A stretch of DNA of 64,000 nt. Origin: Pomphorhynchus laevis. Lineage: Eukaryota; Acanthocephala; Palaeacanthocephala; Echinorhynchida; Pomphorhynchidae. The position numbers were made by a program, and so were the translations under genes. The notes under the pieces are model-generated. The model saw only the letters and a program-made list of their open reading frames with translations, ran no database searches and had not been told where the DNA came from. Location: contig WNNJ02002600.1 in assembly GCA_012934845.2 (NCBI GenBank), forward strand, positions 1-64,000. Direction: 5' to 3'. How positions within the stretch are numbered: position 1 is the first letter of the stretch; every line of letters starts with the position of its first letter. Positions 1,002-44,520 of this stretch are shown one piece after another.

Positions 1002-4000
1002 CTGAAATAGGAACAAGACAGAACAAACATATAATCATAAGTTTTTCATTCGGAAAGTCTTATATTAATAAGACATATTAATATTTACTTATTTAATATT
1101 AATATTAAATATAATATTTTTATAATTTGTTTATACAACATGTACAGCATGTTGGACATCAATTAATTGGTCCGACAGTCACAAATGAAAGTCTCCATTT
1201 ATCTAGCAGCCAATATCGGCTTGTTAAAGAATCGCAGTTCGACTTTGGCAATCGCTAGCTTGCTGATGCCGATCGAGTGGGACGAGCTAGTATATCACTG
1301 TATTGCACTCTGAAGAGCGTCGCTTCTTTGTCGTAGCTATGATCGAATTTATTTGAGACGAATGTGTCATTAATCCATCTCAGATTATTGTTAATTTAAA
1401 TATAATTGATGATTAATACAAAACTGTACACTAATGAAATTATGCAAAAGTTCGTCTTGTTTTAAGTTAATGATCTAATAATAATGATGACAAATACATC
1501 TAATTAGTCACCTAAGATTAAAGACATCTACACCTTACGCTAATTACGGACCATATCAGCTGCTGATCAGCGCCTATACGATTCAATCTTGTTTATATTA
1601 GCTGAATATGATCAAACTAATCTGCTGCTGCTACTACTTTAAAGTTTAATTGAATTAAAAATCCTTAATTTTTTAACATTTCACAAAATTATTGAAATCG
1701 CTATAAGAATGTCCAAAATTCAATTTGATAACATTAATCGTTACATTGTAACCCACCAATACAGATTTAATTAACCTACCGATGTAGAAATTTTACAAAC
1801 CTAATCATTTATGATTTTAGATTAGATATATTTGTATCAGCGCTATTTGTATTATTGTAACGTTAATGAGTCATAACTTTGATATGACTCATTATAATGA
1901 GTCATAAAGTTTCGTAATTTTCGTTTTTAAAATTTCGTAATATTAAATGCAAGTGACACTATCGTAGAGCAAAATTGATTTCATAACTTACATTACTATT
2001 TGGATGATCTGATGAATTATAGGGTAAAATGCCTACATTTTCAAAAGATTGTAGAGTCCATTCAGCTTCGTAGTTAACTTCGCTAAAGCTGTCATTGAGA
2101 ATCGCTAAACATAAGCAGATTAAGGGTCACGTGGATAAACGAAAAATGTGTAAAATATATCTAAAGCAAAAATGCATCAACGATCATCGTAATATATTCA
2201 ATAAATAAACAAATAGTCGTCTAAATATTTCTCAAATATTTATTTCAATTTGACATAATCACTAAATTTCAATTTGATTATGATACAACTTTTTAATAGC
2301 CATTTATTGTAAGTTACAATGTACTTGTTGAATGCTAATAGAAGTATATTTCACTGTATTATTACGACTTTATAATTAAAAATTATTTTAATATATCTGA
2401 TATTTAATATCATATAATTTTAATAAAAAATTATGCGATTTATGTATTTTTTAAATCATCCATAAATAAAAATATTAAAAATAAATAACAATTTTATAAA
2501 AGCGTTAAACTCTTATAAGTTTTTATAAGTAATTCAATAATTTAATAAATAATTTTAAAATCAATTTTTGTCTCCTAACATTTTGATGTATCTATTATAA
2601 CAACTCGTTTAAACAACAGTGGCTGAAAATGGTAATAGTAAATAGTAAAATAGTTAGTCATAAAATAATGTTTCAGTCAACATTGTTTTGAAAATGATAA
2701 ATATGATAAATATAATTTATAAATCAACGCTCAAATTAGCCTGATTGATTGTGATCTAATAAATTTATTGTTAATTTAAATGCAATTCATTTACCGGCTG
2801 ATGTTGCCACACTATTCCACAATCTTGCATTATTGTTGATCATATTAGTGATAGTTTGGAATCTATCTTTTATCTGTTGCAGATGTTTCTTTAATTCAAG
2901 CGCTTCATTTGTTGATGACGGTATGTCCTTATTCAGAAAATTGAAAAGTAATATCGTCAGGGTGCGTTCTTTATGAAGCATTTGCAAAATATCAAGGAAC
3001 TTTATTGTCGAATCTTCTTCCTAAAAGTCAATTACACTTAAGTCAATTGAAACAATTTATATAATAAATCTTAACTATAAAAATATAATAACTATAATAT
3101 TTAATATTAATATTAAAATATTGATATTATTTAATATTAATTTAATTATTAATATAATACCCTATTTCAGTATTAATTCCACAAAAAAAATTTTAGAACA
3201 CACAAAAGTAATAAATTTTCAAAATATAAATACATACGATCTTAAGGAAAAATATACATATATATGTTATAATAACTATAAAGCCTATCTAACAAAAATT
3301 AAATCATCAAATAAATATAAATATATGGATAAAATTGAATTAATAGAATCCTTAAATATTTTGATAAATCAAAATTATTTAAAAGTAGGGGCATCTATAT
3401 TTAGACAAATAAAATGTGTTCTAATGGGTGGTAATAGTAGCCCAATTATAGCTGACTTGTTTTTAAGCTTTATAGAATATGAATTTGTTCATAACTGTGT
3501 AAAAACTAAATCTAAACAATATAAATATATGAAATATATGTTTCGATACATTGATGATATATGTGTATTTAACAATAAGTGAACAGATATATTCAGGTAG
3601 CCTCAATCTTAATAAAACCAATATTGATGATAATAAAGGGATATATCTAGATATGAACATTAAATTAGCATCAATTAAAACTACTATTAATTTATATCGT
3701 AAAGATGACATATTTAAATTTACAAGAAACATATTTTTGCATGAGCATTCATGCTTACCGTAGGGTTATCATGTAAAGTATCGTCAAGTCTCGTTTTAAC
3801 ACTATCAAATTTCAAAAGTTACTAAATAATCAAATTACTAAATAATCAAATTTCACCATAGGAAATGTGTTATTAGCATGTATTGTATTGCTGCTATGTT
3901 GGGTCGAGTAATATGGACCGAAACCTGATAACTTAGCAGTTCCTCCTGATGATCACTATTCCTTATTCTAATACATCGTCTGTTATTTGTTAGTCAATTT

Positions 4001-10000: not shown

Positions 10001-13000
10001 AATTCGGGCCTTTAAGATAGCAGGATAACTTAATTTTGCAGATCTTATTAGTAATAATATTAATAGTAATAATTAGAATATTAAATACTGAAATCACGTA
10101 TATAAACTATGCACGCATAAATACATATATTCTGTAGTAAAGATTGTTTTCCTAAAATCTGTCATGAATAAAAATTAAGATAAAATTGGTACTAGTCTGT
10201 TTTAATACTCGAATTGCACGTTTTGTACTATTTAAACCTGTTAACCTGTTTTGAAACATATTTTACAAGATGATATGCGTTCTATTAAGTAACAATTCAG
10301 ATCGAGTTATTCACTATTTATAGAATCACAGTAAAAACAAGAGAAATATACCTTTTGCATTTAATGGATTTGCATGGATTTTCATTGGTTCACAGCAAAC
10401 GAATTCGACACCGGTAAACAAGCTTATCTGACAGCTATCCAGCAGAGCATGTTCATGTAAGGTTAAGTTTTCACCACCACATTCATTCAATGCTAGCTTT
10501 AGCCATTCTTTATTAGATAGACATATATCACGATCATACAGATGCTTGAATTTGCATCCAACAGGGACTAATAGTGCTGGAACTCGTGCAGAATTCGAAG
10601 CGTCGTAATTTGACAAACATTCGAATACGTCTGCATTTACATCATTTGCATCAAATTTCGAATCACTTACTCTGTCGACTCTCAGCGCTCTTGTGATATT
10701 TTTATATGGAAAGAGCTGAAACGTGGACATTTTTAAAATGCACATTTACTATCCATCCGTACAAAGTATAATGTGATAAAAATATTTTATCTAGTGTTAT
10801 AAATATCGAATTTAATTGTTTTGATTAAATTATATAAAGCGCATTTAAGATGAACAGGATCGTTTTAAAAACAGTTTGATGTACGTTTTTATTAAAGACT
10901 GAATTTTTAACGTTCTTTTTTAAAAATATATTGTTTTGTCTATAAAACATCATACAGTAAAAACATATTTTACATTAAAAACATACGAATATAATTCGAA
11001 TCATGTTTGATTTTTTATTTAACCAACTTTTATTTAATCATTTTTACGTTCGCCTTTAAATTTAATAACCTACCATAAAGTGTAGGTAGGTAACCCCCTA
11101 CTGTAGGTTACCTACCTACAGTAGGGTAGGAAACTCGTATTTCCTACCATGCTTTAGGAAATGCGAGTTTGACACTATTTAATTCCTACCTCACTTCACA
11201 AACTACCGGGATCCTTTTGACTACCTATAAAGGTCGCATTTCAATCCCATTCCGACAAAAATCAGCGTCCTAACAAAAATGTTACACATTTCCAATCTAT
11301 CTGTCTTTTTCTGGTAGGTTATCTCGAAAAAATATTGAAGTTCTAGGTATAGGCTCCAGCTGAACATGGATAGTGCGAGTATTGCTTGCATTAACCCTTT
11401 TTAGTTCCGTTTCTGGAAGATATTTAAGAAGGAGAAGTTTGTCAGCTGGAAGGAGATGGGATCAGGTTGGATTGGTAACATGGTCCTTGAGAAAGGTTTG
11501 GAGAAGTCACTATCCCTATACAACTACTGAGCAACTCCCTCTCTCCAAACTATTCCTACCAGGGGCAAATTCAAGAGAAAAGATTTTTCCGTTACGGATA
11601 TTCTGAACTCTAGGTTTCTCTTCCAGAAAATCTTAAAACCAGTAGGCCACTCTACACTCGCTTATGTAAGTTTCTGACATATAGTCAGAGAAAAAAGGTC
11701 GCAATCATTATGCTATTAGCCACCCCTTCCGATATGACACGAATTAATGTTAGTCGTAGATTATTTTTAGCAAAACGCAAACCTGTCACTTGTCATCCAG
11801 ACCTGCAGCCCATTTCGATACACAACTATCTCATCTCCACTTACGAAAAAGCACTTGCGCCTAAAATCTACGACCATTTAAAAAGGCGAAATTTTATCCC
11901 ACCTGGTTTTCATGGGTTGTAAAAGGTCGCTCAGTCTATTCTGCTATCGGTGCAGTACATCCGTTTTGTCAATAAAATAGTCATCAGCTAGCTGTTACTG
12001 TCTTTCTTAATTTCCTACTGCATTTGACCACATATCCGTTCATTTTATTATCTTTGCTCTCATGTCATACTGGTTACCTACGATAATTGTTAACAGGGTG
12101 GAGATACATATGTACACTACGCGATTGACATAGATACACATCAGTTCTACCCAATTACAGGTGTGCCTCAAGGCTCCCTACTTTATCCTACCATATATCT
12201 TGCTGCCTCCATTGTTCTCTTTAAAGCTTTTAGACGGAATCAACATATTGTGGTTTACGCTGATGATACAATAGCCCTTTTTTCTGGACGCATGTGAAAA
12301 GATGCAGCCTCTAAAATAGGTTAATTCTTAACAGGATTAAAGGATAAGTTACCCCCTTAAAATTTTATTTTCAATCCTTCCAAATCGCATGTTGTAGCCT
12401 TTAATGGCGTTCCTGCTACAAAGAAAAATTTAAGAGACTAGTAATATCTTCTTGTATCCATTATGAAAAATCAACTCCTCCATGTCTCTACACATCTAGT
12501 AATATACCTAGGGATTATACTGTCGGATGCGACTTGAATAGATTTAAGAGTCTGCTGGAGAGAGCTAGGCGGGCTCTGAAACGGGCCCGACATATGTCGA
12601 TAAGTGGAAAGGCTCAAGTGCATCTCTGGTGTACCTGGGCAATCTTGGGACTTGTCTTATTTTCTAGAGAACGCTTCCTCGGGCAAAGACCAAAATTTCC
12701 TAAGATCCTCATGTCGAGATTACCAACCATCGTACGCTCCAATTGTGCTCTCATGTGTGTGAAATACCCTGGATGGCTAAATCAGAAAGTTGCGTGTTGG
12801 CGTCAACTCTGGGAACTGATCCTATATTGGCATCATAAAAGACGACGAAATAAATTTGAATATGACATAGAAATTTTTTACTCAGTTTGTGTACATAATT
12901 TTTAGTTAATGCATGCTTTGTTTATTAACAAAATCCTTATTTTTATATATTAATAAATCATTTTGCTATTTAAAGAATGAATATTTAAGTATAAATGACA

Positions 13001-16000
13001 TGACATGAAATAAATATGAATTGATATATTGAAGCTGTTCACTTGAACAAAAAATGTTGTCTCTGTTTAAAGTATTAATTTTTTATCAAATTTAATAATT
13101 ACGTTGTAGTTTAGAACAATTCAGTTAAAAGTTAAATTAAAAAAATATATTTTTTGATGTTGATCATAAATTTATAAATTATCTTTAATTATTGAAATTG
13201 TATGTGCATGTGGTATTTCTACTGCAGTTATTATGATATACGTATTTCGTATATCAAGGTGCACAATACGATTTATTTGTCGCTTTTTCATTTTTTGCTA
13301 AATGACTATATATTAATAAATATATAGTCAATAAATATATGTCAATAAATATTTATGTCAATAAATATTTATGTCAATAAATATATGTCAATAAATATTT
13401 ATGTCAATAAATATATGTCAATAAATATTTATGTCAATAAATACATGTCAATAAATATATGTCAATAAATATTTATGTCAATAAATATTTATGTCAATTA
13501 ATATATGTCAATTAATATATATCAATATACAACAAATATTTGTCAATAAATATAAATATTTATATTTTATAATACTCTTTAACTACAAAAATAACTACAA
13601 GATAAGTCAAGTCTAATAATTTCATATAAAGACAATTTTCATGAATTGTCTTACAATTTCACGAATTGTCTTCTTACAATTTTACGATTTTCATATCAAG
13701 TCAATTATTTATATTTTATTCTTATAATATTTATAAATACCGTTGGAAATGCATAAAATATTGTATGCTTACTCTGTGACATACGTCTATGACATCACCT
13801 ATTGAATTATAGCATGTTACATTGCTAAATAATAAATACGTTTTATTTATTTGTATCTGATCAGTATTTGTATCATACATTCCATTGAAATTGCATCTTG
13901 GAATGACGACCAAATTGCTCGGATTGGCATCGAATAATTTCAGATTAACCTTTTAATGATAAAATCATAAATTACTAAGAGAGTGAAAATTAAAATCAAT
14001 AGAATTAATAAAAACTTCTATAAATAAATTAGTAAAATATATTTTATAAATAAATGCAAGTATAAATATTATATATATTGATTTTTTACAAATGACAGTT
14101 AAATTATCGTATCGATAATTCGAGTCAATAATGTCGAAAAATTATAACAATTGCTATCTGTTAACTTCAATTATTTATGTAGTTTAGAATGTGGTATGGT
14201 TGACCGGTAGAAACTTCAAATACATTTATTAATTAACGAGAATGCGATGGTAATGAATGCATCATTGTAGCGAATTTTAGCTAATTGAGATAAATAAAGA
14301 AAATAAATTGTATTTTCCTTAAATAGTGCTTGGAATTAGTGGACATTAGTTCACATGGACAAACACCTAAAAGTGTTGTCTATTGTTTAAAGTATTAATT
14401 TATTATCAAATTTAATAATTATGTTGTAGTTTAGAAAAATTCAGTTAAAAGTTAAATTAAAAAAATATTATTATTTTTATTTTAAAGGTATTTTATGTTT
14501 GCTTCGATATCGTTATTTTATTATAAACTTGAGAGAAAGTGATTAATCATGAGCATTGATTAACCAATTTGTGGATACAGATATAAATATAAACTAAATT
14601 TAAATATAATATAAAACTTATTATAATATAAAACTTAAAATAAAATAATATAAAAATAAATAATAAATAATATAAAACTTAAAACTTATAATACAAAACT
14701 TATATTATAAACTTAATATAAATATAAATATATACAGATATAAATTTAAACTATTTAAACACGTTAATGGATTTAAACTATTAGAAATCGAAAATAGCAA
14801 GAATTGCTTTTAATAAAGGATTGGCTAATGTATTTAATAAAGGAGGATTGCTCACATCATTTTATAGCATAATGAACTAATAGAGTAGCAATACCTACGT
14901 TTACTTCTAGTGTTTCGCTAAAGAGGGATATCGCATAGTTGCAGTTTCAAAGTTTTTATATAATTACATAACGTGTGATTTATTGTGTTAAAAATGGCTA
15001 TCTTTTACACATCTGGGATTTTAGAAGTTCAAAAGGACCGTCATCACATATTTGAGATTAAAAAATGACCTCTTGATAGATTCTCTCCCCTACATTAAAA
15101 ATTGTTTCTTTTCTTATATTCGCAAATATATTAGCATAAATAGAATTATATAACTATATAAATATATATTATATAATTATATATATTTATATATTTATAT
15201 TTATATTATATAATTATATATTATATAATATTTAATATATAATATATAATAAATATAGATTTCTTATATTCGCAAATATATTAGTATAAATATATTATTA
15301 TAAATATTATTTACGCAATCATTTTTAGCCAAACGCGGAAGAACGACGATAACAGTAGCAAGTACCGTTTCGTCATCACAATGACTCATCAGTGCCAGAT
15401 CCCTCCCACTGCTGGTTACAGAGGAGGGCTGGTAGACGGCACACGAGTCATGTGTATGAAGTACCAGAAAGATTTCTGGTAACTTCACATTGAGTGCTAA
15501 ATCAGCACTACTGCTTCACCAAATAGGATCATTAGCAAAAGCATTGAGACCTGCGCTGGCATTTGCCAGTGCTTTTGCTAATGATCCTATTTGGTGAAGC
15601 AGTAGTGCTGATTTAGCACTCAATGTGAAGTTACCAGAAATCTTTCTGGTACTTCATACACATGACTCGTGTGCCGTCTGCCAGTCCTCCTCTGTATCCA
15701 GCAGTGGGAGGGATCTGGCACTGATGAGTCATTGTGATGACGAAACGGTACTTGCTACTGTTATCGTCGTTCTTCCGCGTCTGGCTAAAAATGATTGCGT
15801 ACATAATTCACGCGGAATGGTCTCACACTCTCTCTTGATAAATATTATTATAAATTAGTAATTAAAATTTTGAGACATACATGATCATATTACATTCATC
15901 CGAGTTCACATGCTGCGCCGACGACTCATGTCGTATAAAGTAATAATTCGATAAACACGCCCAGCTATATATTCGTTATTTACTGTATATTTATCAATTT

Positions 16001-32870: not shown

Positions 32871-32905
32871 GGGCGTGGTAATCCCGGGTGAACCGATTAA
32901 ACACA

Positions 32906-35359
32906 ATGTCTGGTAACGGTGACCCTTTTTCGCTGAACATCGTTCAGTGGAATTCGGGAGGAGCTTCTGCCCTTAGACTTCTCTCAGGCCGAGATGCTGA
33001 TGTTATAGTCCTTCAGGAGACGCGGTCTATCCGTCGACCCGAGGACATTACTCGATTTATCCCTAAGCACATCTGTTCAGACTTTACTCCTTATATAACC
33101 CCGCCTCACTCCTCTTCATCTCAAGGACTCTTGACCCTAGTTAAATGCTCCTTAAGATCGTCCCTCCTATTAAATTATTCTTGTCCAGCCCTGTCTTGTT
33201 TGGTAGTTTCACTCTGTAAGAACGGTAAACGCTTCAGTCTGGCCAATGTCTATATTCGTCCAGGGGAGATTCACAAGAATCGGGACATCCTGGATAATAT
33301 CCTTGACAGCGGCTACGACATGATACTAGGCGATTTCAACGACAGAACTGGTCGTTGGATTAATGCTGCACACCGCAGAGCCAGGAACCGGTACTTCATT
33401 CACAAACCACCATCCCCTACCTTTCATTGCTCAACAACAAACTCACTCCTCGACCTTCTACTGATTCATGAGAGGTGGCTGCTTAAGCCCTTCTGTACTG
33501 AACAGTCGCGTCAACATCTGACCACCTCTCATGACCTTATTCGTTGGCGGATTGAGGAGGATACGCTGCTTCGCCGGAGATTCTGCTTTGATCCAATCAG
33601 AGTGGCAGTCTTCCAGGCAGCTATCAGCCGCTTCCCCCGAATAGGGAATGAGAGTCTGACCGAATTTAATACCTACCTCTCTTCGCAAGCTACCGGGATT
33701 TTATCAATTACCTATAAAGGTAGAATTTATTGCCCCACTCCGACAAAACTCAAGACCCTTGCACACCTGCTTCATTCACCCAATCTCTCTGCTTCTGCGC
33801 GTCAGGTTCTCTCGAAAGAATACTGGAGCACTAGATATAGGTTCCAGCTGGGTAAGGATAGGGCTAGCATTGCTTCCCTTAATCCAGCCCGGTCTTCCTT
33901 CTGGAAGATATTCAAGAAAGAGAAGTCTGTCTCTTGGAAGGAGAGAGCTTCTGGTTGGATAGGCAGTATCGGTCTGGATAAAGTTTTGGAAGAGTCACTA
34001 GCCCTACATAATTATGGAGCCACGCAATCACCGCAACCAATCCCGCCTTGGGGAGACTTCAGGAGTAGGGATGTCTCAGTTCCTGAGATTCTCAACGCCT
34101 GGGGGCCTCTTCCGGGCACCTCCAAAACCATCGCTCCACTCTCTTCTCGGGTCTGTCAGCTTCTGACTGCCGATCAAAGGAGAGAAGTGGCCGTCACCAT
34201 GCTTTTAGCATCACCTTCTGATGTAGCAGGCATCAATATTAGTAAGAGAATTTTTATCCATAAGAGAAATCCTGTTCGCTCTCCAAAAGACCTGCGGCCC
34301 ATCTCGATACAAAATTCCCTCGTTTCGATCTACGAAAAAGCGCTTGCGCGTAGAATCCGCGACCATTTAACTAGGCATCACTTAATCCCACCTGGTTTTC
34401 ATGGGTTCGTTAAAGGGCGCTCGGTACATTCTGCAGTATGTGAGGTGCAGCAGTTCTGTCGGGAGAACCGTCATCAATTAGTTGTGGCTGTTTTCTTAGA
34501 CTTTTCGGCTGCATTTGACCGTATCTCCATTCCCTTCGTTATCTCTTCTCTTAGGTCCTTAGGGTTGCCTGCGAGAATTGTTAACAGGGTGGAGATACTG
34601 CTGTATACCAAGCGGTTCTACTATGAAGACGACCCTGATGCGCGTCAGTTCTACCCCATTACAGGAGTGCCTCAAGGCTCCCCACTTTCTCCTATCTTAT
34701 ATCTTGCTGCCTCCATACAACTTTTCAAAATTTTCAAACGTGAAAAACGTCTTGTGGTATATGCTGATGATACCACAGCCCTATTCACTGGACGTAGGTG
34801 CAAAGACGTAGTCTCCGACATCAGCCAATTCTTTTTAAGATTAAATGACCAGCTTCCCCAGTCCAATCTTATTGTAAACTCCGCCAAATCGCAGGTGGTA
34901 GTTTTTCATGGCGCCCCTGCGACGAGGAAAAAGCTTAAGAGATTAGCAATCTCTGCCTTATCCTCCATTATGCCCAACGACCAAATCCCCTCCTTCACTA
35001 GTCGAGTAAGATACCTTGGGTTCACTGTGACCGTGAACTGGTCGGCCAAGTCTGACCTGGATAGACTTAAACGTATCCTGAAGAGAGCTAGATGGGCCCT
35101 GAAACGGGCCCAACATCTGTCATTAAAGGAGGTAACTCAGGTGCGCCTTTGGGGCACCTGGGCTATTTCGGGGTTAGTCTTCTTCTCGAGAGGACGTCCC
35201 CCTGAGCAAAGACTAATGTTCTTGAAGCTACTCGTGTCCCGCTTACCTGACATCGTCCGTCGCGAGTGGATCCTTCGGGGGGTGGCAGACCCCGGGTGGT
35301 TCACTCGTAAGGCGGCGTGCTGGATCGGTTCTAGGGATCAGATTCCCCTAGAGCTATAA
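32906..35359 (+). CDS. LINE ORF2, endonuclease and reverse transcriptase
   Basis: 817 residues from ATG. The apurinic-type endonuclease at the N-terminus has IVQWNSGG, VIVLQETRS, NVYIRPG, GDFNDRTGRW and TTSHDLIRW (the S-H catalytic pair). RT landmarks are RPISIQNSLVSIYEKAL, VAVFLDFSAAFDRI (motif A), GVPQGSPLSPILYLAAS (motif B) and VVYADDTTALF (motif C, YADD at residues 619-622). There is no RNase H domain. The enzyme nicks target DNA and primes reverse transcription of the element RNA. The copy looks complete. Only residue-level comparison could show subtle inactivating changes. Confidence 0.92.
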   Translation: MSGNGDPFSLNIVQWNSGGASALRLLSGRDADVIVLQETRSIRRPEDITRFIPKHICSDFTPYITPPHSSSSQGLLTLVKCSLRSSLLLNYSCPALSCLVVSLCKNGKRFSLANVYIRPGEIHKNRDILDNILDSGYDMILGDFNDRTGRWINAAHRRARNRYFIHKPPSPTFHCSTTNSLLDLLLIHERWLLKPFCTEQSRQHLTTSHDLIRWRIEEDTLLRRRFCFDPIRVAVFQAAISRFPRIGNESLTEFNTYLSSQATGILSITYKGRIYCPTPTKLKTLAHLLHSPNLSASARQVLSKEYWSTRYRFQLGKDRASIASLNPARSSFWKIFKKEKSVSWKERASGWIGSIGLDKVLEESLALHNYGATQSPQPIPPWGDFRSRDVSVPEILNAWGPLPGTSKTIAPLSSRVCQLLTADQRREVAVTMLLASPSDVAGINISKRIFIHKRNPVRSPKDLRPISIQNSLVSIYEKALARRIRDHLTRHHLIPPGFHGFVKGRSVHSAVCEVQQFCRENRHQLVVAVFLDFSAAFDRISIPFVISSLRSLGLPARIVNRVEILLYTKRFYYEDDPDARQFYPITGVPQGSPLSPILYLAASIQLFKIFKREKRLVVYADDTTALFTGRRCKDVVSDISQFFLRLNDQLPQSNLIVNSAKSQVVVFHGAPATRKKLKRLAISALSSIMPNDQIPSFTSRVRYLGFTVTVNWSAKSDLDRLKRILKRARWALKRAQHLSLKEVTQVRLWGTWAISGLVFFSRGRPPEQRLMFLKLLVSRLPDIVRREWILRGVADPGWFTRKAACWIGSRDQIPLEL

Positions 35360-37549: not shown

Positions 37550-39415
37550 CAACGAAAAGCCGCTTTTTAAGTTCTGCCTTGGAATGTATAAAAATGTATA
37601 AAAAGTAAAATATTTATTTAGTGTAAATTGATAAATTTACAATAATAATATTTATAGGTTATTCAGATAAATAGGTTCAAAGCGAAATAAACATGTTTTT
37701 TAATGATCACGAAATAAAATGGTCATATCATTTACATAGTAGATTTATTTCATAAAATGTTTATCGGGAATGCATTTTTAAGTTAAACAATTCATGACAT
37801 GCAAGACGTAACTCGCAGTATTCAAATTTGTTGTGTTTTTGAGTGTTTCGCATAACTGTATATTACTGATCGAATTCTCGTTCATCAGTATTTAATTATT
37901 TTTGATCAATTTTCATTAATAGACTAATTTTCGTAATATGGCTTAAATTCAAATTTAGCTAAACCCGGTTAACCATGTTTCAGTTAACAATTTTAGATAA
38001 CCTATTGTATATCGTAGGGTCTTAAATGTATCCTAAAAATTGGTCTACACAACAATATACTCTCTAATTTGAAATTAATAATGGAACGCATCAATTCTAG
38101 AACTGTTTTGTAAATTTTTAATAATTTTTTAATTATAATTTCTTTTAACAAATAGTAACTTTAATATTAATTAGATTTTACATACATTAATGAAAATAAT
38201 AGTTTTATAAATCTAAATAACATCGATATTATTGTTTTTAACATATTAACTTAAAATTCTTCCAGATAACTTATTTTATTTCCATTTTTCTTGCTACACT
38301 CGCTTGTACTCTGTAATATGTTTTCAAATTAAGTTTAATTTACAACTTTGATATATTATTTATAATTACAAAGTAGTTAAAGCTTTTCAGATGATCGTAG
38401 TAATTTATTATAAACAATGATTGATTTTATACTTAAGTGAGTACAAATAGAGATTAATTATCTACTCTATATATACTCATGCTTTTTATATTATGTAGTA
38501 TTACTGGTGAAATGCAAAAGTACAGTTTTATTATCTAATCTATATAAATTAATTTGTTTAAGAAAAACTTAAACATGAGTATAAATGAATTAAAAAAATT
38601 TAATTTAAATTAATTATTTAAATTAAATTATTTAAATTTTAATTATTAGTACTTATTTAAGCATGAATCTTTTTACTTAGAAAGTAAAAAGATTCAAAGT
38701 AAACTTTTAATTAAAAGGTTTACTTATAATTAGATTATGGAAGAAAATTAATTGCACCTTATACTATTGAATAATTATAGCAAGCATTCTTTACTAAATG
38801 TTATAAACTGTACTTACGAATCACTAGTAAATAAATAACCAAACCAACTTTGTTAATTGCTTCGATTATTATAATATTATATATTAAACCAAGTTGAATA
38901 CCTTAAGCTGATCACTTCCTATTGTGATCAATTTTGACATTGTGCTAATGGAAAAAAGACTTGTAATAGTAGATATTTTGGGTTATACTTGTACAATAAT
39001 TTTACAAGATTACTAGTATAGATTCCATCACAAAGACATGTGCCGTTTCTTTTTAAAATGTAATATTTTTGGTAAGCAGCGTAAAGAAAATGCTACTGTT
39101 TTATTGAGTAAACACTAAATGTAGCACACTATTAACTTTTTAATAAATGAAATTATATCTCTGTAATGTGATATTTCTATTTAATTTATATTAATAAAAA
39201 AATATTTTTCATAATGTAAAATAAATATAAATTTACTAAATAAATGCAATTCAATAAATATTAAATTTAAAAATTAAATAAGTAAAGAAATATATTACAA
39301 GGATATAGGTGGCTAAAAATACCAAAAGTAATGAAATAATATAATCAGATTAAAGTAAATTCATAAAATCAGGTATATGCTGTTACCGCCATTAGAATAG
39401 AACATTTGTAATGAT
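37550..39415. other. A+T-rich region without a supported gene
   Basis: Contains adjoining hairpins at 38664-38696 (15-bp arms) and 38697-38725. No open frame of note. Confidence 0.5.
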
Positions 39416-39419
39416 TTAC

Positions 39420-41220
39420 TATCATTAGAAAGAAATTTGTAATTATAATAAAAAAATTGAAATCGATGATATTAGAAACATAATAGAAACAGATTGTATT
39501 TGCAGAAGTCTTTATTTCGATAAAATAAATGAACATATACGCACTCATAATCTAGAATTAATTGAAAATGGTTAATTAATGAAAATGCTATCAAAAGGGT
39601 AAATATTATAACTTAATATTAAGTTATTAATATAAATTAAGTTATTTATAATTAAGTTATTAATATTTACTTATTAATATAACTTAATAAGTAAATATTA
39701 TTTAATATTTATTAAATATTAATAAAAATAAAATTTACAATTAGATATATAATGACTTAAATGCTTACTTTGGTAAGCTGATTAATAGTGAAAGGTTAAA
39801 TACATCAAAGATTAAAATTTGGAAAGATTATATATTTAATAAAATTAGAGAGAAAATGAAAATAACAAGCAATTATAAAAGAAAAGATCAAATAATTAAA
39901 GATATGTATACAGAACTGACTAAATTAAAGGATAACTATATAATAATAACTATTGATAAAGCTAGTAATAACTTTGTCTTCATATGCAAAAAGCTTTATT
40001 ATGATATACCGATGAAGGAAGTTAATTTTAATGATTCAGATGTAAACGCAACATATGAACGTAGTGATTTAAATAGAGAAACAATTATTACGAGTCATTG
40101 ATCTATAATGGATAAAAAGAGTATAAAAATTGAATCAGATAATAAAGCTATACCTATATTATATTGGTATCCGATATACATAAAAATTACAAAATATATA
40201 TACTTAAATAAAAAATTACTTAAAATCCAATAAAGCCTAGGTTCATATTTAGTGCTTTTAAATGTACATTAAAAACAACTTTCTGTTAATATGAATAAAA
40301 TACTTAAAGTAATTAAAGCACACTTCAAAAAATATTGCAAGGTAATCGAAATTAATACTGGTATAAAACACTATTTCGGTATTAATTATACAAAAGAATT
40401 TTTAGAACAGACAAAAGGAATAAATTTTCTACAAAATACGTACGATTTTAGTACGCTTTATACAAATGTAGATTTATCAGATTAAAGATGCAATAGAATA
40501 ATTAATAATTAATTTATATGTTATAATAACTATAACGCATATCTAACAAAAATTAAACCATCAATTAAATATAAATTTATGGATTAAATTGAATTATTAG
40601 AATCCTTAAATATTTTAATAAATAAAGTTATTCAAAAGGTGTTCCAAATGAGACGTAATAACAATTGAAGGTAATTGTAGCCCAATTATAGCTGACTTAT
40701 TTTAAGAAGTTATTTTATAAAACTCATATTTTATAAAATATGAATTTGTTCATAATTGTGTAAAAACTAAATCTAGACAATATAAATATATGAAATGTAT
40801 GTTTCGATACATTGATGATATATGTGTATCTAACTCTAACAATTTTTATTCAATAAGTGAGCACATTTATCCAGAAAGCCTTATTCTTAACAAAACCAAT
40901 ATTAATGATAAAGAAGGTGTATATCTAGATATGAACATTAAATTAACATTAACTAAAACTACATTTAATTTATATCGTAAAGATAACATATTTTAATTTA
41001 CAAGAAACATATTTTTGCATGAGCATTCATGCATACCATATAATATAAAATATAATACATTAAATAATGAAATTTTAAGAATTGCAACAATATGTAATGA
41101 TATTGGCTTTCTTCAAAATCATTTAAATAATTTAATAGATGCATATTTTAAACTAGGTTACTATAAAAATAACATCAAGCAGAAAATAGTAAAATATACA
41201 TAAATCAACACAATAATATA
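39420..41220 (+). mobile_element. Penelope-like element, plus strand, decayed
   Basis: N-terminal region with KLKDNYIIITIDKASNNFVF and ICKKLYYD (39856-40101), then TYDFSTLYTNVDLSD (40291-40485), the Penelope-type RT core. A frameshifted finger/palm region at 40500-40760, MFRYIDDICVSN at 40790-40996 and the thumb-side block FLHEHSCIPYNIKYNTLNNE at 41015-41203 follow. A poly-stop background breaks it into four frames. Beyond the RT the sequence runs straight into the tail repeat. No GIY-YIG nuclease domain is visible. Confidence 0.85.
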
Positions 41221-41254
41221 AAGAATAAATTTAAACTCTTAAGTGGCAAATTTT

Positions 41255-41690
41255 TATGGATGGATAATAAATAATATACTTTGTATTAGAATAGAATATT
41301 AGATTATCAGATTTCATCAGAAGAAATACGTCCTTAGCACGTATTTGGCCCCCTGCTATGTGGAGCGATGAATAGAAGCCGAAATCTAATAGCATATCAG
41401 TTCCTTATGATGGCCTTTTATCCTAATTATGGTACAACGTGTGTTATTTATTAGTCAATTCATAAAAATTGACTTTTATTTCAATTTCAATTTTTATTTT
41501 AACTTGATATAAGTTATATATAAAATCTTATAACAATTATTTATAATTATTTATTATCTAAATATTAAATTTTGAATTTTTGATTTAGCATTATTATAAT
41601 TTGTATTTATTTATTTTTATTTGTTTAATTAATTTTTTAATTGTATAATTATATTAAAAGCGTAGACTCTGTTAGCTGATTTGATTAATA
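41255..41690 (+). repeat. Penelope tail repeat downstream of the plus-strand copy
   Basis: Starts TATGGATGGATAATAAATAA. It carries AAATACGTCCTTAGCACGTA, CTGCTATG..CATATCAG, GCCGAAATCTAATAGC and the GTCAATTCATAAAAATTGAC hairpin, and ends with AGACTCTGTTAGCTGATTTG. It directly follows the RT, which fixes this repeat as the 3' end of the element. Confidence 0.75.
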
Positions 41691-43060: not shown

Positions 43061-43889
43061 TTTAAATTTTAACTCAATATGAATTATATGAAATCAATTA
43101 TAAAATTATAAATATAATTATAATCATTTATAATTATTTTATTATTTATTATTTAACAATTTTAATTTTATTTATTATTTAGTTTAATTGATAAATAATT
43201 GAATATACGTATTCTTAAATATAACTTTATTTTTAATATCTGATTCAATCTTTATACTCTTTATATCCGTTATAGAAAAATGAATTGTAAAAATTGTTTC
43301 TAAACTTAAATCTTCACGATCATATGTTGCGTTTACATTTATATAATTATTGTTTACTCTTCCATCAGTATATCATAATAAAGCTTTTTGCATATGAAGA
43401 CAAAGTTATTACTAGCTTTATCAATAGTTGTTATTATATAGTTATCCTTTAATTTAGTAAGTTCTTTATACATATCTTTATTAATTTTATCTTTCCTTTT
43501 GTAATTGTTTGTTATTTTCATTTTATTTTTAATTTTATCAAATATATAATCTTTCCAAATGTTTATCTTAGATATATTCGAGCTTTCACTATTAATCAGC
43601 TTACTAAAGTAATCATTTAAGTTATTATATAACGAATTGTAAATTTTATTTTTGTCGTTGTTATTATTTAATCTATATTTATACCCTTTTGATAGCAGCT
43701 TTCTTAATTCACAATTTTCAATTAATTCTAGATTATGAGTGCGTATATGTTCATTTATTTTATCGAAATTAAGACTTCTGCAAATACAATCTGTTTCTAT
43801 TATGCTTCTAATATCATCATTACATATTGATTTCAATTCTTTATTATAATTAAAAATTTTCCGTCCTAATAGTGGTATCAACTTATACC

Positions 43890-44520
43890 TTATTTTAGGA
43901 ATATATTTACTTAAATCTGATCATATATTTTCTTTATTTTTATAATTATTTAAAAGTCCTTCTATATTTATGTTGTAAAAACATTTGTTAAAATTTTATG
44001 GTTAGTCTATATTTTTCTTGTTATTATAAGCATTTGCTTCCGATTATAGTACTTTATATTAAAATAACTGTATATTATACAACTTGATTTAATCTTTGAT
44101 TTATTGAACAAATGATATTTTTAGAAAAACTTCTTATATTTACATAAAGATCTTTTAGCTTAATTCCATGGGCACATGGAATTAAGCGTTTTAATCCAAA
44201 CATTTTATTTTTCTAATAGTTTTTGATTTAATATTGATATGTTTTCTTCGATAATATGTTCTAAAATAAATAATTTACAGTATCCTATATCATGTCCTAT
44301 TAATCTCATATGTTTATGAAATATAGTTTGACTATTATGCTGTGTATTATATATGTGTTACCTAAACCTAGTTTTTAAAGTTTGATACGTTCCTTCTACA
44401 TATTACAGTCCACATAGCATTTCTGACACTTAAGTTTATGAAGTTAATTCATAGAATAAAACACATTTTAAAAATAAGTGATGTTGATCCATTTTTTATT
44501 TTGAATTTTGTTGCCAGATT
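43890..44520. other. A+T-rich region with a 13-bp-arm hairpin
   Basis: Possibly the outer part of the minus-strand Penelope copy. The hairpin GCTTAATTCCATG/CATGGAATTAAGC is at 44158-44187. No open frame. Confidence 0.45.

Follow-up and report, generated by a model that had tools for sequence, protein, structure and literature searches.

A probable high-copy type III hammerhead retrozyme of Pomphorhynchus laevis with the insertion signature of Penelope-type elements

Retrozymes of animals have been described with type I hammerhead ribozymes, and Penelope-like elements (PLEs) are named as their likely mobilisers, a candidacy that rests on the co-existence of the two, on tandem copies and on shared hammerheads (PMC7229834, PMC7761336). 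The word 'inverted' does not occur in the main text of one of these reports (PMC7229834). The pseudo-LTRs of PLEs lie head-to-head, with a 31-bp tail on one of them and duplications of 8–10 bp, and self-priming has been argued for them (PMC3846280). The PLE protein PAc cuts and extends both strands and begins inside the RNA, the tail corresponding to the stretch between two start sites (PMC11167929). In the same study, no reads started or ended at the hammerhead cut site, and insertion in vitro by hammerhead mutants was unchanged (PMC11167929).

To characterize a ribozyme-bearing palindrome of the acanthocephalan Pomphorhynchus laevis, we analysed a window of 64,000 nucleotides (contig WNNJ02002600.1, positions 1 to 64,000, forward strand) and searched the assembly of 249 Mb in 3,242 contigs. 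The palindrome is one copy of a high-copy non-coding repeat and not a one-off fold-back element. This family has in common with PLEs the head-to-head repeats, the tail on one of them (30–40 bp in PLEs), the flanking duplications (8–10 bp in PLEs), the tandem copies and the hammerhead, but its hammerhead is of type III whereas that of PLEs is a minimal type I (PMC3846280, PMC11167929). It further departs from PLEs in that it encodes no protein and gave no detected similarity when compared with PLE flanks. Metazoan non-LTR retrozymes are described with a type I hammerhead, whereas the topology here is type III, with helix III open (PMC7229834, PMC7761336). Plant LTR retrozymes likewise combine a type III hammerhead with a non-autonomous retroelement, but they have LTRs, a PBS, a PPT, units of ~700 bp and 4-bp duplications, in contrast to units of ~300 bp and longer duplications here (PMC4918200, PMC7761336). 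Atypical type III hammerheads are described in HDV-like RNAs from termite and toad and in some insect genomes, and the present one resembles them in its long helix I with an internal loop and in its extra hairpin; the genomic motifs of termites are described as isolated, whereas thousands of copies here reside in a mobile repeat (PMC7936874). Searches of the open-licence PMC literature turned up no animal retrozyme described as both high-copy and equipped with a type III hammerhead, which is a weak negative because only open-licence papers were covered. We consider it probable that the family is such a retrozyme, inserted by PLE-type machinery that primes on both cut strands. The family thereby bears on which enzyme moves animal retrozymes and on how such animal elements move.

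The window element is flanked by two exact copies of a 14-bp target-site duplication, ATATTATTATAAAT, at 15292–15305 and 15842–15855. Its left arm (15306–15546, minus strand), delimited by the inverted repeat and by end class, is an inverted retrozyme segment whose outer end, of type P as defined below, stops in a hairpin loop. The right arm (15547–15841, plus strand), delimited by family match and end class, is a sense retrozyme segment with a 3′ tail and an outer end of type D. Specifically, the inverted repeat pairs 15306–15546 with 15567–15807, 241 nt each and 98% complementary, across a spacer of 20 nt; the first-pass annotation had recognised the inverted arms and put their length slightly short, at 232 bp. 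The arms differ from each other at 6 sites, the right one being identical to another family copy from which the left has 6 differences. The hairpin of the right arm (15773–15817, plus strand) pairs TTCCGCGT (15773–15780) with ACGCGGAA (15810–15817), and is assigned by the positions, folding, end distances and pairing across copies.

Each arm contains a predicted hammerhead. In the right arm (15671–15751, plus strand), stem III pairs 15671–15677 with 15745–15751 through seven pairs, one of them G-U, followed by GTC (15676–15678), stem I (15679–15720), CTGATGA (15721–15727), stem II (15728–15741) and GAAA (15742–15745), with the predicted cut after 15678. The left ribozyme, its mirror image, runs on the minus strand from 15442 to 15362; its stem I contains a single A-C mismatch, and its predicted cut lies between 15435 and 15434. 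Unconstrained folding of 15665–15755 returned the right hammerhead at −36.0 kcal/mol (z −2.83; 1 of 200 shuffles as good), and that of 15358–15448 on the minus strand returned the left one at −33.7 kcal/mol (z −2.60; 1 of 200). These folds bear out the earlier description of a complete hammerhead in each inverted arm (stem III, GTC, stem I, CTGATGA, stem II, GAAA), with a single stem I mismatch on the left. In both arms the open helix is III, with I and II closed, which is the type III topology. An Rfam search, proposed at the outset for the type III covariance model, gave no match at the gathering score within the window; in a relaxed search RF00008 (type III) matched both arms weakly, each at 19.1 bits and E 0.28, where the gathering score is 48.5. 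The curated model alone is therefore insufficient to establish the hammerhead; the long stem I of the window ribozyme is absent from it. Relaxed matches to miRNA families (best mir-569, 42.4 bits, gathering 110) coincide with the long palindrome and were discounted as not real.

To survey the family, we searched the genome for a 26-nt ribozyme core with up to 3 mismatches. This gave 2,855 matches (1,503 forward, 1,352 reverse), and the reversed pattern gave 0 genome-wide, so the core matches are not due to chance. A DNA search with the retrozyme unit gave 235 matches from 40 scored candidates. The 100 exact core matches listed were grouped by eye into 63 places, of which 60 were fetched with their flanks (L006–L065; C383, C388 and C390 were left out), while L001–L005 were taken from the unit search; a search for further copies and their ends had been suggested in the first-pass annotation. 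L018 and L025, neither of them head-to-head, have near-identical flanks and are probably one insertion counted twice. Copies occur singly, in tandem or as mirror-image pairs; the tandem copies have periods near 245, 305, 311 and 322 bp and reach 11 units in a row. As in metazoan retrozymes, small non-coding repeats (units of ~245–322 bp) with a hammerhead thus stand in tandem. The RNA of a 323-nt unit is strongly self-paired (folding z −7.4; 0 of 100 shuffles as good). All three core motifs are intact in 57 of 77 distinct units, a proportion favoured by picking loci through exact core matches. Across the family 92.4% of alignment cells in the ribozyme helices pair, and covariation is no higher than in shuffles; this alignment holds 72 of the 77 distinct units, five of odd length being omitted (L035, one of L042, one of L044 and two of L057), together with a 73rd row (L001:1898–1978) that has wrong coordinates and is mostly gaps. 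The exact core has 0 matches in viral contigs. At L010:88–1054, inverted retrozyme pieces recur every ~494 bp, perhaps as a young satellite array.

The orientation of neighbouring segments is strongly one-sided. A head-to-head junction, in which a minus segment meets a plus segment with their 5′ ends facing, is present in 33 of the 60 fetched loci, and a tail-to-tail junction in 0 of 60 (sign-test p 2e-10), counting segments of at least 40 nt, with nested ones dropped and a 25-nt overlap to a 40-nt gap allowed. Either arm of a mirror-image insert may contain several units, and junction positions vary between loci. The first-pass annotation had taken the window unit for a fold-back element whose layout was peculiar to it; rather, its arms are read as the 5′-facing halves of one retroelement insertion, an arrangement with variable junctions and possible tandem units on either side that recurs in more than half of the fetched loci. 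The first-pass annotation was also aware of no described element with a head-to-head ribozyme layout; the layout is known in kind, because head-to-head repeats are described in PLEs (PMC3846280) and hammerheads in PLE terminal repeats (PMC7936874). Given the number of loci and the duplications that flank whole units, an artefact of assembly, named at first as what might undo the finding, is unlikely.

Such duplications, scored as exact repeats, reach at least 10 bp in 18 of 66 elements and at least 11 bp in 14 of 66, whereas comparing flanks from different loci gave 2.4% and 0.8%, respectively; some of them (L032, L049, L063) are found well away from the segment edges and could be due to chance. 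An exact duplication of at least 9 bp is absent from 43 of the 66 elements, which counts against PLE-type insertion. A 12-bp repeat flanks the insert of L065 (minus, minus, plus), which interrupts the frame of another retroelement in its GIY-YIG part; L086 has the uninterrupted form of that frame. The family thus displays the insertion signature of PLEs, namely head-to-head repeats, a tail at one end and a short target-site duplication. By eye, host DNA adjoining the insert is palindromic over a short stretch in the left flanks of L047, L042 (1466–2183) and L058, which would fit extension of the cut target strand on itself ahead of joining.

The two outer ends of an insert differ in a regular way. 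Among 38 end-typed head-to-head junctions (35 in the 60 loci and three in L001–L003), 31 combine one end that has the stretch of the hairpin 3′ strand (D) with one that does not (P), where 19 would be random (p 5e-5); the remainder are six P/P (L009, two in L010, L031, L042, L052) and one D/D (L028). A plain length threshold for the tail asymmetry gave 21 of 24 (p 0.00055), and the arms differ in length by a median of ~41 nt (range 4 to 180). The family hairpin consists of TTCCGCGT or TTTCGCGT paired with ACGCGGAA, and insert ends fall in its loop or ~20 nt past it. Both hairpin strands could be located, with at most 3 mismatches apiece, in 76 distinct units; all eight pairs form in 39 of these, seven in 23, six in 12 and five in 2, and the loop measures 26–29 nt in 63. 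The 47 P ends are located a median of 20 nt beyond the hairpin 5′ strand (quartiles 11.5 and 25), and the 39 D ends a median of 21 nt beyond its 3′ strand (quartiles 12.5 and 29); the stem was absent from three segments. Both distances are widely spread, which counts against the reading that we favour. Of three sequences folded, the window copy and one from another subfamily form the hairpin, while the third ends at its P end and cannot show it.

At the 5′ side, 15 of 89 core-bearing segments (L006–L065) start exactly at the first base after GTC, where a uniform spread predicts 0.3 (p about 5e-21); the next most frequent start position has 5 segments. This position is the one at which a cut after 15678 had been predicted from the window alone. 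The pile-up indicates that the family hammerhead probably acts in vivo, and is genomic evidence for its action before reverse transcription. The other 74 segments start elsewhere, which fits the favoured reading less well, as do the PAc mutants cited above. Seven of the 15 cut-site starters have no inverted partner by the segment criterion (L008, L011, L012, L042 at 1466–2183, L049, L054 and L059), although by eye a short inverted stub can be seen in L054 and L059. L012 is an array of two units and L042 one of three, both starting at the cut site, and thus partly cut oligomers seem to serve as templates.

We further compared the arms of individual inserts. In L027 they belong to different subfamilies, with 17 differences in 104 nt and copies elsewhere at 5 and 3 differences, and two templates are shown for this locus by sequence comparison. 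In L060, whose flanking repeat measures at least 29 bp (~52 bp by eye), the 3′ part of the left arm belongs to one subfamily and the right units to another, so that two templates are likely for that part. Mixed-subfamily junctions number 2 of the 27 in which both arms are classifiable, and the strict two-template test was passed by 1 of 28 arm pairs; taken overall, the sequence evidence for two templates is thin. In 5 of the 28 pairs (L031, L036, L039, L042, L051), each arm has the other as its nearest relative among the fetched copies; this and the single pass of the strict test count against a general two-template rule. Arms that come from different RNAs at one or more loci bear on the origin of the inverted repeats of PLEs.

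The same genome contains PLEs with hammerheads of their own. A GIY-YIG search of the genome gave 75 matches, including degenerate PLE copies unlike the PLE of L086. A small hammerhead-like motif lies ~0.4 kb downstream of the GIY-YIG frame in L071 and L074, on the same strand, and ~1 kb downstream in L069; in L073 and L077, our reading of the sequence places a reverse-transcriptase-like stretch upstream of the frame on the same strand. The PLE-linked hammerhead motif has 1,397 genome matches, with 0 in the control. Among the 100 exact matches listed there are 11 opposite-strand neighbours within 2.5 kb, all head-to-head (p 0.001), and 0 tail-to-tail. Six of these 11 pairs, selected for close spacing, were fetched, and exactly one arm carries the tail motif in 6 of 6. 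The best exact repeat is 12–14 bp at the element ends in four, where its position is +83 to +88 on the side that lacks the tail and +121 to +126 on the tailed side, 34–40 nt apart; L088 and L092 have no clear end repeat. A hairpin of TCTTCTTC with GAAGAAGA was read by eye, and folding of L089 pairs both strands within a larger structure. A non-coding retrozyme and a PLE-linked hammerhead repeat of one genome therefore have the head-to-head orientation, the single tail and the length of the duplication in common. Against PLE-type insertion, comparison of the retrozyme with six PLE flanks gave no similarity (best z 2.4, below the best shuffle). Neither a reverse transcriptase with a GIY-YIG nuclease nor homology places the retrozyme among coding PLEs, its units being too short to code. 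The motifs near GIY-YIG frames take the forms CTGATGA..GAAA and CTGAAGA..GAAA (L071, L074, L069; L073, L075), which suggests that the genome has at least two hammerhead-bearing PLE families.

Many invertebrate PLEs have a permuted, N-terminal GIY-YIG domain. The L086 PLE is of this kind, with a 908-codon open frame (L086:810–3533) in which GIY-YIG (29.2 bits) lies on the N-terminal side of the reverse transcriptase, and its 3′ end has 7,030 genome matches. It was considered as the driver of the retrozyme and dropped, since no opposite-strand neighbour lies within 4 kb among the 100 3′ ends listed, and attention therefore moved to the hammerhead-bearing PLEs. These 100 include same-strand neighbours ~3.5 kb apart. 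Around L086-type PLEs in the fetched loci, four head-to-head and three tail-to-tail arrangements occur within 300 nt, too few to use. Broken copies of this type lie in the window at 39318–41271, 43232–44414 and 3163–3793.

An insertion signature of PLEs without detected PLE sequence makes mobilisation in trans by a PLE the simplest account, in which the PLE step and the priming on both strands are inferred. The PLE-linked hammerhead loci, which share the head-to-head orientation, single tail and duplications with the retrozyme, are counted in its favour. The hammerhead would cut retrozyme transcripts, and both target strands would be cut, a few bases apart, by a Penelope-type enzyme, for which the hammerhead-bearing PLEs of this genome are the most likely source. 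Both target 3′ ends would then prime reverse transcription inside the RNA, one in the hairpin loop (P) and the other ~20 nt beyond the hairpin (D). Each cDNA could reach the cut 5′ end, stop short of it or continue into an uncut neighbouring unit, and joining of the two cDNAs would yield a mirror-image insert with one ribozyme per arm, at least some inserts being made from two RNAs. It is conceivable, though we put it forward tentatively, that PLE-type integration in general uses a dimeric complex that primes on paired strands with two templates, at two fixed points of one RNA hairpin, the loop and a point ~20 nt beyond.

Alternatively, a LINE could move the retrozyme, the head-to-head form then arising by twin priming from the RNA 3′ end and an internal site. 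Twin priming also yields 5′-facing inversions with flanking duplications, and LINEs with endonuclease and reverse transcriptase are present in the window; both outer ends, however, are internal to the repeat unit even in tandem arrays (L029) and alternate between two places, and the PLE-linked loci of the same genome show the identical pairing of ends, which makes this origin unlikely. A single cDNA or antisense RNA that folds on itself and is copied, as proposed for the inverted repeats of PLEs (PMC3846280), would suit the short spacer of the window element, the palindromes at some junctions such as that of L027 and the five pairs with mutually closest arms within the fetched sample. We regard such snap-back copying as rather improbable given the different-subfamily arms of L027 and of the 3′ part of L060 and the regular D/P difference between outer ends. 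Long arms, a short spacer and a flanking duplication are also what a fold-back or terminal-inverted-repeat DNA element, or an inverted duplication at the DNA level, would leave in the window. Such an origin is largely contradicted and most improbable: fixed mirror-image outer ends were not found, the ends differing at most typed junctions; junctions vary; single and tandem copies are common; and 5′ ends accumulate at an RNA cut site.

Finally, we examined the surroundings of the element and of the fetched loci. The first-pass annotation placed the element in an intron of a host gene, a placement that is at most putative; the nearest coding evidence in the window is an APP copper-binding exon at 10326–10745 (minus strand), 4.6 kb away. 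Genome searches with APP_N and APP_E2 gave no match and are uninformative, as among the control genomes APP_N matched in none and APP_E2 in one, below the cut-off. At 32888–35359 (plus strand) the window has a LINE-like open frame of 823 codons that matches endonuclease and reverse transcriptase. Additionally, the GIY-YIG locus L066 (contig C1660) holds a UvrC-like bacterial frame (UvrC_RNaseH_dom, GIY-YIG), and this contig probably derives from a symbiont or contaminant.
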